Shown here: in pieces, positions 51,147 through 57,350 of the stretch | Position numbering within the stretch: position 1 is the stretch's first letter | Layout: every line of letters starts with the position of its first letter | Assembly (NCBI GenBank): GCA_944321965.1 | Contig: CALUNH010000016.1 | Coordinates: 1 to 58,993 of the forward strand | Direction of reading: 5' to 3' | Length of the DNA: 58,993 nucleotides | From: an uncultured Alistipes sp. | Lineage (GTDB): Bacteria; Bacteroidota; Bacteroidia; Bacteroidales; Rikenellaceae | Made by a program: the position numbers and the translations under genes | The notes under the pieces: generated by a model | Databases searched by the model: none | What the model was told of the DNA's origin: nothing | Seen by the model: only the letters and a program-made list of their open reading frames with translations

Positions 51147-52484
51147 TCAGGCCAGCACCCGGACGAGCTCTCCGAACGGCACCTGCCGCTGATCGCCCGT
51201 CCGCATCTCCTTGACCGTCGCGGCCCCGGCCTCCAGCTCCTGCGACCCGACGATCACCACATAGGGGATTCCGCGCCGGTTGGCATACTCCATCTGCTTC
51301 TTCATCTTGCCCGCCTCGGGGTAGATCTCCGCGGAGATGCCTTCACCGCGAACCTGACGAAGCAGCGGCAGCACGGCAGCCTCCTCGGCGGCGCCGAGGT
51401 TGGTGAAGAGCACGCGGGTCGTGCAGTTGACCTCCTCGGGGAAGAGGTCCAGCCCGGTCATGACGTCGTAGATGCGGTCGGCGCCGAACGAGATGCCGAC
51501 ACCCGAGAGGTTGGGCATTCCGAAGATGCCCGTGAGGTCGTCGTAGCGTCCTCCGCCGCAGATCGAGCCGATGGCGAAATCGAGGGCCTTGACCTCGAAG
51601 ATCGCACCGGTATAGTAGTTCAGGCCGCGGGCCAGCGAGAGGTCGAGCTCCACCGTGAGGTCGATACCCAGCCGCTCGACATACCCGAAGACGGTCTCCA
51701 TCTCATCGATGCCTTTCAGACCGGTCTCCGACGTTGCCAGCACTTCGCGCAGCTGATTGATCTTCTGGTGGTTGTCGCCGCTCAGTTCAAGAATCGGTTG
51801 AAGCCGGTCGACCGCCTCCTGCGACAGCCCGCGCTCCAGCAGTTCGGCCTTCACGTTCTCCAGACCGATTTTTTCCAGCTTGTCGATCGCCACCGTGATA
51901 TCCATCATCTTGTCGGCGTGGCCGATCGCCTCGGCAATACCGAAGAGGATCTTGCGGTTGTTCATCTTCAGCGCCACGCGGATGCCCAGCGCCTTGAAGA
52001 CCCGTTCGACGATCTCCACCAACTCGACCTCGCACAGCAGCGAGCGCGTGCCGATCACGTCGACGTCGCACTGGTAGAATTCGCGGTAGCGGCCCTTCTG
52101 CGGACGGTCGGCACGCCACACGGGCTGGATCTGGTAGCGTTTGAAGGGGAAGGTCAACTCGCCCTGGTGCTGCACGACGTAGCGGGCGAACGGGACCGTC
52201 AGGTCGTAGCGCAACCCCTTCTCGCAGATCTTCGAGGCCTGGCGCACCTCGTCGTCGGTGAGGCCCGAGGCGTAATCGCCCGAATTGAGGATCTTAAAGA
52301 GGAGTTTGTCGCCCTCGTCGCCGTACTTGCCCAGCAGCGTCGAGAGATTCTCCATCGCCGGGGTCTCCAGCGGTGCGAATCCATAGGAGCGGAAAACCCG
52401 CTTCACCGTGTCGAAAATATACTGTCGGCGCATCATCTCCGCCGGGGAGAAATCGCGCGTACCTTTGGGTATGGAAGGCTTCAT
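51147..52484 (-). CDS. hisS: histidyl-tRNA synthetase
   Basis: Class II synthetase of 445 residues. [13 protein letters not shown] at the start; motif 2 with [10 protein letters not shown]; the HisRS-specific [15 protein letters not shown] and the motif 3-like [23 protein letters not shown]; a C-terminal anticodon-binding domain ([17 protein letters not shown]). Start ATG 52484 (MKPSIPKG); the frame extends 11 codons upstream only because it reads through a 7-bp repeat array. That array occupies the region where a ribosome-binding site would be expected. Confidence 0.95.
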
Positions 52485-52486
52485 AT

Positions 52487-52565
52487 CAATTGAAAATGGA
52501 CAATGGACAATGGACAATGAACAATTGAAAATGGAAAATGGATAATTAAAAGTGAAAAATTAAAA
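52487..52565. repeat. 7-bp repeat array, left arm of the four-helix-bundle cassette
   Basis: On the plus strand variants of the unit AAAATGG/ACAATGG repeat about ten times (for example CAATGGA three times at 52501-52517). The part AATTGAAAATGGAAAAT (52523-52539) matches the reverse complement of the right arm at 53011-53027 with 15 of 17 identities. Seen from hisS it lies directly upstream of the start codon. Confidence 0.8.
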
Positions 52566-52622
52566 CATTCGCAATAAAATTTAACGTGACAGGAATTTAC
52601 AAATTGACGGCAATGGGTTGAA

Positions 52623-52979
52623 TCAAATGGTTCCAGCAGTGGTTTTGACAATGGAAGTCAACAATTTTTCCAGTTCGGAGCAGTCGGGAAGGATCGTCTT
52701 CCGCTCGTCGCAGGTCAGATAATCCGCCGCCACAAGCAGTTCGATCCAGTATTTTGTTTCGGCACACTCTTTCAGAGCGACGTTCATTTTGGAAAGAAAA
52801 TCCTTCCGGCTCTGGCCCTGCTGGGCTTCGACGATGTTGGCCCCGATGCTCGTTCCCGAACGCAGGAGTTGTTTGGACAACACAAACTCCTTTTTTTCGT
52901 CGCACAAGTATTTGTAAAGCCGAACGATGCGCACGGCAAACGCAAAACTCTTCTCAACGGCCGGATTTTCCTTCATCAT
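52623..52979 (-). CDS. four-helix-bundle protein (23S rRNA intervening-sequence family)
   Basis: 118 residues, helical. Family pattern: EKSFAFAVRIVRLYKYLC at the start, KQLLRSGTSIGANIVEAQQGQSRKDF (about 40-65), LKECAETKYWIELL and a final ELEKLLTSIVKT. This is the TIGR02436/S23 family, encoded inside intervening sequences of 23S rRNA in Leptospira and Coxiella and widely scattered in Bacteroidota; the Avd accessory protein of diversity-generating retroelements has the same fold. No retroelement is nearby. Function is unknown; nucleic acid binding is assumed. It lies between two 7-bp repeat arrays. Tandem ATGATG start; the second (52976) is equally possible. Confidence 0.88.
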   Translation of the reverse strand: MMKENPAVEKSFAFAVRIVRLYKYLCDEKKEFVLSKQLLRSGTSIGANIVEAQQGQSRKDFLSKMNVALKECAETKYWIELLVAADYLTCDERKTILPDCSELEKLLTSIVKTTAGTI

Positions 52980-53003
52980 ACCCCACAGTTCAACCGGATC
53001 ATT

Positions 53004-53036
53004 ATTTATAATTCTCCATTCTCAATTCTCCATCAG
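53004..53036. repeat. 7-bp repeat array, right arm, overlapping the end of ettA
   Basis: On the plus strand TTCTCCA-type units (ATTCTCCATTCTCAATTCTCC), i.e. GGAGAAT on the minus strand. The ettA stop codon TGA and the preceding Met-Glu-Asn codons lie inside it. Confidence 0.78.
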
Positions 53037-54698
53037 TTTTCTGTATTTCACGCGGTGGGGTTCCGTGTCGCCGCCCTGGGCCTTTTTCCACGCCTCGTAC
53101 TCCGAGTAGGAGCCCTGGTAGAAGACCACCTTCGAGTCGCCTTCGAACGAGAGGATGTGCGTGGCGATGCGGTCCAGGAACCAGCGGTCGTGCGAAATCA
53201 CCACGGCGCATCCGGCGAAGTTTTCGAGACCCTCTTCCAAGGCCCGCAGCGTATTGACGTCGATGTCGTTCGTCGGCTCGTCCAGCAGCAGGACGTTGCC
53301 CTCCTCCTTCAGTGCGAGGGCCAGGTGGAGGCGGTTGCGCTCACCGCCCGACAACATGCCGCACTTCTTCTCCTGGTCGGCGCCCGAGAAGTTGAACCGC
53401 GCGACGTAGGCCCGGGCATTGACCTGCCGGTTGCCCAGCGTGATGAGGTCCGTACCGCCCGAAATCACCTCGAAGACCGTCTTCTCGGGATCGATCGACT
53501 TGTGCTGCTGGTCGACGTAGGCCAGTTTCACCGTGGGGCCCACGCGGAACGAACCGCTCGTCGGTTGTTCGAGTCCCATGATCATGCGGAAGAGGGTGGT
53601 CTTGCCCGTACCGTTCGGGCCGATGACGCCCACGATGCCGGCGGGCGGCAGCGAGAACTCCAGATGCTCGTACAGCACGCGGTCGCCGAAGGCCTTCGAG
53701 ACGTCGTGCGCCTCGATCACCACGTCGCCCAGCCGCGGGCCGTTCGGAATGAAGATTTCGAGCTTCTCCTCCTTCTGTTTCGTATCCTCGTTCATCAGCT
53801 TGTCGTAGGCCGACAGACGCGCCTTCGACTTGGCGTGGCGCCCCGAGGGGGACATGCGCACCCACTCCAGCTCGCGTTCGAGGGTCTTGCGGCGCTTCGA
53901 CTCCTGCTTCTCCTCCATGGCCATGCGCGTGGTCTTCTGTTCGAGCCAGCCCGAGTAGTTGCCCTTCCACGGAATGCCCTCGCCGCGGTCCAGTTCGAGG
54001 ATCCACCCGGCGACGTTGTCCAGGAAGTAGCGGTCGTGCGTCACGGCGATCACCGTACCCTTGTACTGCTGGAGGTGCTGTTCGAGCCAGTCGATCGACT
54101 CGGCGTCGAGGTGGTTCGTGGGCTCGTCGAGCAGCAGCACGTCGGGTTGCTGCAGCAGCAGGCGGCACAGCGCCACGCGGCGCCGCTCACCCCCCGAGAG
54201 GACCTTCACCGGCTGATCCGGGTCGGGGCAGCGCAGGGCATCCATCGCACGCTCCAGCACGCTGTCCAGTTCCCAGCCGTTCACGTGGTCGATCTGCTCG
54301 TACAGTTCGCCCTGACGCTCGATGAGCCGGGCCATCGTATCGTCGTCCATCGGCTCGCACAGCTTCATGTTGATCTCCTCGTACTCCTTCAAGAGAGCCA
54401 CCGTCGCGGCGCACCCCTCCTCGACGACCTCCTTCACGGTCTTCGAGTCGTCGAGTTTGGGCTCCTGCTCCAGATAGCCCACCGTATATCCGGGCGAGAA
54501 GACCACTTCGCCCTCGAAATTCTTGTCGATGCCGGCGATGATCTTCATGAGCGTGGACTTGCCCGCGCCGTTCAGACCGATGATACCGATCTTGGCCCCG
54601 TAGAAGAACGAGAGGTAGATGTTGTTCAGCACCCGTTTCTGGTTGGGGAAGGTCTTGCTTACGCCGACCATCGAGAAGATGATTTTTTCGTCTGCCAT
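53022..54698 (-). CDS. ettA: energy-dependent translational throttle protein EttA (ABC-F)
   Basis: Ribosome-binding ABC-F ATPase that gates the first elongation steps by ATP/ADP ratio. 558 residues. Two ATP-binding cassettes: Walker A GLNGAGKST (about 40) and GPNGTGKTT (about 357); signatures LSGGERRR and LSGGERNR; Walker B LLLDEPTNHLD and LLLDEPTNDID. The arm/linker contains ERELEWVRMSPSGRHAKSKARL, diagnostic for EttA. The end HRVKYRKL is the normal family terminus, after which Met-Glu-Asn and the stop come from a repeat array. A TATCTTTG at 54739-54732 serves as -7 box. Confidence 0.95.
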   Translation of the reverse strand: MADEKIIFSMVGVSKTFPNQKRVLNNIYLSFFYGAKIGIIGLNGAGKSTLMKIIAGIDKNFEGEVVFSPGYTVGYLEQEPKLDDSKTVKEVVEEGCAATVALLKEYEEINMKLCEPMDDDTMARLIERQGELYEQIDHVNGWELDSVLERAMDALRCPDPDQPVKVLSGGERRRVALCRLLLQQPDVLLLDEPTNHLDAESIDWLEQHLQQYKGTVIAVTHDRYFLDNVAGWILELDRGEGIPWKGNYSGWLEQKTTRMAMEEKQESKRRKTLERELEWVRMSPSGRHAKSKARLSAYDKLMNEDTKQKEEKLEIFIPNGPRLGDVVIEAHDVSKAFGDRVLYEHLEFSLPPAGIVGVIGPNGTGKTTLFRMIMGLEQPTSGSFRVGPTVKLAYVDQQHKSIDPEKTVFEVISGGTDLITLGNRQVNARAYVARFNFSGADQEKKCGMLSGGERNRLHLALALKEEGNVLLLDEPTNDIDVNTLRALEEGLENFAGCAVVISHDRWFLDRIATHILSFEGDSKVVFYQGSYSEYEAWKKAQGGDTEPHRVKYRKLMEN

Positions 54699-57199: not shown

Positions 57200-57298
57200 T
57201 TCCAGAAACGGTATTGGTTGTCCCGGTTTAATAATTTATCGCAGGGATTCGAAGGTCCCGGAGGTCGGAAGTCCGAATCCTTCGAATCGCCGTCTTCT

Positions 57299-57350
57299 TC
57301 CATTTTCAATTTTCAATTTTCCATTCTCCATTTTCCATTCTCCATTTGCA
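57299..57350. repeat. solo 7-bp repeat array at the end of the mechanosensitive channel gene
   Basis: Plus-strand units TTTTCAA, TTTTCAA, TTTTCCA, TTCTCCA, TTTTCCA, TTCTCCA run in register (period 7). Same repeat type as at 52487-52565 and 53004-53036, but no four-helix-bundle gene is present here. The last eleven codons and the stop of the channel gene (57313) lie in it. Confidence 0.85.

Follow-up and report, generated by a model that had tools for sequence, protein, structure and literature searches.

Among the described systems closest to the locus considered here, RAYTs are IS200/IS605-related HUH (Y1) transposases situated between two inverted REPs, which are palindromes of 20-40 bp (PMC2817692, PMC8266576). 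The 23S rRNA intervening sequences (IVSs) of Coxiella and Leptospira resemble the locus in protein content, with complementary ends around one gene, S23p/IVP, whose product belongs to the PF05635 family. Another member of this family, XCC0516 (PDB 2gsc), is described as a homopentameric ring (PMC4990558), and the family has been said to resemble Avd, the accessory protein of diversity-generating retroelements (DGRs) (PMC10053308). Finally, TAACTGA direct repeats are dispersed in Beggiatoaceae, Cyanobacteria and Bacteroidetes and have spread with 'no mechanism evident', in the words of PMC4679880.

The locus under study is located in the window, by which we mean the whole stretch of 58,993 nucleotides that was analysed. 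Here a gene for a four-helix-bundle (4HB) protein of the PF05635 family is enclosed by two inverted heptamer arrays, termed arms below, such that the order on the minus strand is ettA, array, 4HB gene, array, hisS:

51147..52484, minus strand: hisS, downstream neighbour of the 4HB gene; its start is the ATG at 52482-52484, placed from relatives
52487..52560, minus strand: 3' arm, downstream of the 4HB gene; heptamers of the 5'-arm family, inverted (CAATGGA on the plus strand), about 8-9 copies (TRF)
52623..52979, minus strand: 4HB gene, PF05635 / TIGR02436, 118 aa (profile matches)
53011..53033, minus strand: 5' arm, upstream of the 4HB gene; array of about 3.3 heptamers of the GGAGAAT/TGAGAAT type (read in gene sense), overlapping the end of ettA (TRF)
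53022..54698, minus strand: ettA, upstream neighbour of the 4HB gene; its stop codon is inside the 5' arm
57298..57347, minus strand: solo array of the window heptamer family; no 4HB gene found adjoining

With REPtrons this arrangement shares the single gene between inverted short repeats, the dispersal of the repeat between genes and the pairing of gene with repeat type, whereas the gene encodes a PF05635 four-helix bundle and the repeat is a non-palindromic tandem array of 7-8-nt units with no palindrome head of the GTAG type; it is REPtron-like in layout, and not a REPtron. With the rRNA IVSs it has in common the PF05635 protein and the complementary ends around one gene, but it lies outside rRNA, its ends are heptamer arrays of a locus-specific unit, solo arrays accompany it and nothing points to selected RNA pairing. 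Its relation to Avd is one of homology at the family level, as stated in PMC10053308; the window locus has neither a reverse transcriptase (RT) nor TR or VR, and its neighbours are ettA and hisS. The TAACTGA-type arrays differ in being direct repeats of a single unit, and the accessible part of PMC4679880 mentions no S23 or helix-bundle gene. As with MITEs, gene-less inverted array pairs exist (L120 in genome G049, and three pairs of TTRGCY arrays); unlike MITEs, the array ends are variable, no transposase is known and no target-site duplication was recognised. Searches of an open-access literature library did not turn up the association of a 4HB gene with inverted heptamer arrays, and a gene between mirrored arrays looks like a hitherto undescribed kind of small mobile element. 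In what follows we argue that the PF05635/Avd-family gene and its cognate inverted arrays together constitute a mobile unit only about 0.5 kb in size, a reading to which we assign a probability of roughly 0.6.

The locus between ettA and hisS

In profile searches the window 4HB protein matches PF05635 with an E value of 7e-29 and TIGR02436, 'four helix bundle protein', with one of 6e-32; its only relative in the PDB by phmmer is 2rld_A, a Bacteroides thetaiotaomicron protein (E 5e-41), and the profile of its relatives matches 2gsc (E 5e-38). The single-sequence structure model of this protein is poor (pLDDT 66), and that of a relative, L121, is good (pLDDT 92.7) and displays four helices. The PF05635 gene is the sole gene of the unit, in which a known transposase or recombinase is absent, and the unit is inserted between ettA and hisS, not in the 23S rRNA gene. 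The 3' arm is resolved by TRF into 8.6 copies of CAATGGA (52487-52546), with a period of 21 across 52488-52560, and the 5' arm into 3.3 copies of ATTCTCC (53011-53033). The latter supplies the stop codon of ettA, the C-terminus among relatives being KLMEN-stop, KLME-stop or similar, and only 3 nt separate the end of the 3' arm from the probable start codon of hisS, a position taken from relatives; the mechanical ORF begins farther out, within the array. The solo array at 57298-57347 adjoins the 3' end of a further gene on the minus strand; translation continued into it would yield a C-terminus finishing in ...LLQMENGKWRMEN, at a stop codon within the array, much as ettA does.

The preliminary description of this DNA reported a gene of the rRNA-IVS family between two 7-bp arrays of opposite orientation, and both TRF and the profile matches confirm it. 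Its figure of 15 matching positions out of 17 between the inverted inner arms (52523-52539 and 53011-53027) is exact, and the two mismatches are indeed wobble-compatible, producing G.U in the sense (minus-strand) RNA and A.C in the other strand. Taken alone, however, a match of 15/17 is weak, since two further such 17-mer pairs occur within the window at spacings of 380-619 nt. In our flank test the 350 nt preceding a gene are aligned with the following 350 nt in reverse complement, and by this measure the window locus has a score of 28, equalled or passed by 3 of 40 cross-locus pairings. The same value is the top score among 579 sliding placements within the window, where it is reached by three, all at about 52.2-54.4 kb. 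The window copy ranks among the weaker ones of its kind, and the real support for it is provided by the other loci and by the empty site in relatives, and not by the 15/17 match alone.

Recurrence across genomes

PF05635 is present in 70 of 101 related genomes at an E value of 0.001, and in 53 above the curated cut-off. Within the window's own order, where 88 of 90 4HB loci were usable, 69 exceed the 95th percentile of the cross-locus pairings (27) and 35 the 99th, compared with 18 of the 88 above the cut-off in direct orientation, and the median inverted score is 38.5 for own-locus flanks versus 18 for cross-locus pairings. A further set of named loci, being the best 80 of at least 590 family-pattern matches and not a random sample, gave 62 of 79 above its own 95th percentile (24), 40 above the 99th and 51 above the stricter cut-off of 27, with 13 in direct orientation. 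These named loci span Bacteroidota, Patescibacteria, Planctomycetota, Fibrobacter and Clostridia, together with one archaeal contig (Methanophagales, L194, score 29), such that the arrangement recurs across phyla. On plasmids, all 12 loci read from 25 records scored above 24, the cut-off derived from the named loci; at the locus of a Nostoc sp. C052 plasmid, where the unit is AATTCGT, the arms match in 36 of 36 positions, and in 4 of the 12 strong direct repeats between the flanks occur as well. Below the cut-off were 19 of the 88 order loci and 17 of the 79 named ones. Thus 4HB genes elsewhere do mostly carry inverted arrays; their lack, which the preliminary description had named as refuting its view, is not what was seen.

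This property is specific to the gene. The control set consisted of 652 ORFs of at least 80 aa on eight contigs, several of them array-rich, of which 19 scored above 27; six were 4HB loci (the window's own being counted through an overlapping ORF), so that 6/6 4HB loci compare with 13/646 other ORFs. Similarly, in a blind scan of 395 kb of genome G084 the top three inverted pairs among 1961 scan windows were three of its four 4HB genes, and a search for TTRGCY arrays alone led to one more 4HB gene, enclosed by convergent arrays (G109:C3 22731-23486). A chance origin of the inverted flanks is ruled out by the cross-locus, sliding-window and other-ORF controls taken together. Among 50,697 phage records there were 0 matches to one canonical 4HB protein.

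As regards gene context, the plasmid 4HB genes L293, L300, L301, L302, L299 and L298 sit in defence-type operons, the settings being positions between cas2 and cas1, beside cas1, between hsdS and hsdR, and between genes for a helicase and a methylase (in one case annotated DrmD/PglX).

Insertion at sites that are empty in relatives

EttA was detected in 119 of 121 genomes of the same genus, and 30 ettA-hisS loci were read. The comparison of hisS-ettA spacing that the preliminary description had proposed did reveal an empty site: the two genes are neighbours in 30/30 loci, and the 4HB gene is present solely in that of the window (L091). The gap is short in 22 of them, with neither a 4HB gene nor an inverted pair (in L098, L100 and L104 a weak CTTTCAC-like run precedes hisS, judged by eye), while six (L092, L096, L097, L099, L116, L119) contain a different ORF of 176-177 aa, without arrays or an inverted pair, and L120 of genome G049 has a gene-less inverted heptamer pair with an inverted score of 44. 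At a second site the joined flank query is interrupted by 512 nt where genome G044 carries its element (L025). The site is filled also in G025 and is contiguous in 16 genomes, where the whole query is matched in one piece at 78-83% identity; two of these contiguous relatives (L269 and L273) have a short solo array, by eye. As with an insertion sequence, therefore, one and the same site carries the unit in some relatives and lacks it in others.

No target-site duplication was recognised; because the arms are themselves repeats and the intergenic sequences of the relatives differ, the exact junction cannot be placed. Neither a transposition event nor an excision product was seen among the loci compared, and the fetched loci included no near-identical copies at separate places in one genome, bar a tandem pair in G087. 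At this latter locus (G087:C67 66536-67383, L064) two tandem 4HB genes have nearly identical scores, and the flanks are in direct repeat with a score of 301.

Arms, gene and the level of action

The unit of gene and arms has a median length of 495 nt. Arm units are mostly of 7 nt and often of 8, present in about 4 copies per arm (medians 4.2 and 4.3), and they vary from locus to locus, the two arms of one locus agreeing with each other. With each flank measured alone, the periods agree in 53 of the 54 loci, out of 167, that have a clear period on both sides; on mutually aligned arms they agree in 102 of 104, a figure that is partly so by construction. The units are non-palindromic and, in gene sense, poor in C (A.36, T.30, G.25, C.09). 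Likewise the 5' arm read in gene sense has more G than C in 110 loci, the opposite in 13 and a tie in 8, and the sequence preceding this arm has more G than C in 92 loci versus 35.

Where orthologous elements occupy one site, the arms match better within than across elements in 6 of 19 pairs on full flanks, or in 7 of 19 by the biased measure of cutting the arms around their own best alignment. This within-locus advantage is clear for Capnocytophaga/Lacinutrix L123/L162/L195 and L083/L084, and it is absent in close pairs. The same gene (79-86% nt identity) also occurs with unrelated flanks, namely in L164/L175, L137/L141/L200 and L022/L054. At L012 a larger tandem repeat of about 78 bp occurs 3' of the 4HB gene, every copy having its own heptamer array.

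To our knowledge, no catalytic domain has been recognised in the PF05635 family, whose 4HB genes are common and scattered, and we know of no function for them outside Avd. The gene is under purifying selection, with dN/dS values of 0.04-0.19 in 13 of the 14 pairs with finite dS and 0.88 in the remaining one, a very close pair. It is also preferentially oriented along host operons: by a crude calling of neighbour genes, 90 of 131 loci have both neighbours in sense with the 4HB gene, 4 have both antisense, 19 have one of each and 18 lack a call on at least one side, and at the annotated plasmid loci the corresponding numbers are 9 in sense, 2 antisense and 1 mixed.

Such an orientation accords with the main rival of a DNA-level unit, namely an intervening sequence operating in RNA, in which the arms would pair in a polycistronic mRNA and RNase III would cut the stem, freeing the 4HB message and leaving the neighbours unharmed. 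The 90 versus 4 bias is in keeping with this possibility, as are the predicted pairing of the ends of the sense RNA (MFE z -2.25) and the rRNA IVSs of Coxiella, which, according to PMC4990558, comprise a 28-bp stem and an S23p ORF and undergo cleavage by RNase III. Yet the orientation can likewise arise from a gene that needs its neighbour's promoter, and pairing of the ends is expected from any inverted repeat. The mismatches between arms allow a distinction to be drawn, as G.U and A.C should be equally frequent if only the DNA duplex matters and G.U should be in excess if RNA pairing is selected; in the sense RNA of 131 loci we counted 131 G.U against 163 A.C, hence no excess of G.U, and the wobble compatibility of the window arms was on this count dropped as general evidence. 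Moreover, none of seven rRNA motifs was present in 170 loci, and unpaired solo arrays are far commoner than pairs. Of the IVS-like element initially suggested, therefore, the discrete element stands and chance does not account for it, but an action through RNA pairing like that of rRNA IVSs is unsupported. Given arm mismatches with no tendency to G.U, we lean towards a unit acting at the level of DNA and consider the processing of RNA unlikely, although it is the strongest of its competitors.

Solo arrays of the cognate unit

Three heptamers of the window family have 113 matches at no fewer than 26 sites in the window's own genome, compared with 0 for the reversed-pattern control, and among the matches listed only those at the window locus have opposite-strand partners around a gene. 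Seven of the nine AATKGAN arrays examined in this genome start between -59 and +3 nt relative to the stop codon of an ORF that lies on the same strand and encodes 366-501 aa.

Across genomes G000-G060, for which the 4HB loci above the cut-off were largely fetched, TTRGCY is matched 85-576 times in each of the six genomes that carry a 4HB gene with TTRGCY arms, and no more than 80 times in any of the other 55. AATKGAN has 95 matches in G000, 138 in G056 and 335 in G049, where just one arm fits, within one mismatch, besides 106 in G005 and 154 in G031, and at most 16 elsewhere; for AATKAGT the counts are 205 in G025 and 122 in G044, besides 112 in G051 and 79 in G052, and at most 37 elsewhere. 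Array-rich genomes with no cognate 4HB gene detected are G005, G031 and G051, incomplete assemblies in which the weak hits were examined in part. The coincidence of array abundance with a 4HB gene of cognate unit is strong, and it is not exclusive; the six genomes with TTRGCY arms trace to just two orthologous insertion sites, so that it involves few independent events.

Among TTRGCY solo arrays in stretches of G028, G109 and G138 (L241-L260), those between co-directional neighbours are in the same direction in 9 cases and opposite in 18 (p 0.12), convergent settings outnumber divergent ones by 14 to 3, and only 2 of 46 arrays lie inside ORFs. A sense bias as a property of arrays is thereby ruled out for this family; the likeliest cause of the sense bias of the 4HB genes is accordingly expression from the host operon. 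As TTRGCY and AATKGAN arrays are placed differently, no general claim on array orientation is made. Three gene-less inverted TTRGCY pairs were found, with arms 62-173 nt apart, and unpaired solo arrays far outnumber pairs.

One could suppose that the arrays are passive, with slippage making the heptamers, template switching keeping the arms alike and the 4HB gene being an ordinary gene of a tolerant operon. Heptanucleotides are the most abundant of the longer simple repeats in many genomes and have been ascribed to slippage in earlier work cited in PMC4679880, and the 9 versus 18 count of TTRGCY solo arrays is compatible with passivity. This nevertheless leaves the specificity of the inverted flanks for 4HB genes (6/6 versus 13/646 other ORFs in the control contigs), the recurrence in unrelated phyla with differing units and the insertion in one piece at the empty ettA-hisS and G044 sites without a cause, and we hold it to be improbable.

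A possible mechanism of movement

If the unit is mobile at the level of DNA, the identity of the mover is constrained. The HUH (Y1) family PF01797 is found in 0/61 genomes of this genus, compared with 31/40 genomes of other genera in the order, which rules out a RAYT acting in trans for this genus. That the Avd-family protein might instead assist an RT encoded elsewhere, which would copy a hairpin RNA, is suggested by the Avd-like description of PF05635 in PMC10053308 and by the sense orientation of the gene with transcription, but it is very improbable, as the array-rich, 4HB-bearing genomes G028, G044, G049 and G056 (80-91% complete) have no PF00078 match and the two RVT_1 matches of the window's own genome fall on C3 and C34, away from the window's contig. 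With no HUH transposase seen in the genus and with element-bearing genomes that show no PF00078 match, the mover should be either the 4HB protein itself or host replication or repair.

We therefore envisage, for the DNA-level mobile unit, that the 4HB protein assembles as a ring-shaped homopentamer like the published XCC0516, which would recognise the unit of its own locus, as single-stranded nucleic acid or as DNA, and so bring one arm next to the other. Copying or moving of the unit would be left to replication or repair enzymes of the host, and the solo arrays of cognate unit could be by-products or non-autonomous passengers. Since such a ring would contain five four-helix bundles and an arm has about 4-5 units, each subunit may bind one unit. 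The binding of protein to unit, this stoichiometry, the part played by the protein in movement and the host enzymes employed are all inferred.

Implications

A broader proposal is that such units represent a pan-bacterial class of minimal mobile elements, in which a pentameric Avd-family ring would read the heptamer specific to its locus in the two inverted arms, each subunit taking one unit, keep these arms alike and seed solo arrays genome-wide. Some of the heptanucleotide repeats dispersed in bacterial genomes would then be owed to this class, with the rRNA IVSs and the Avd of DGRs as offshoots of one family of selfish elements. We advance this tentatively, as a possibility that has the odds somewhat against it.

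Through the link to cognate inverted heptamer arrays, the PF05635 4HB family gains a testable role. The dispersed heptamer arrays in turn gain a candidate agent, which could account for some of the common short repeats of bacteria, and a REPtron-like system built on a protein of quite different fold is added to those described. If the arms do evolve in concert and switch their units, they would constitute a natural experiment in the co-evolution of a small protein and its repeat.
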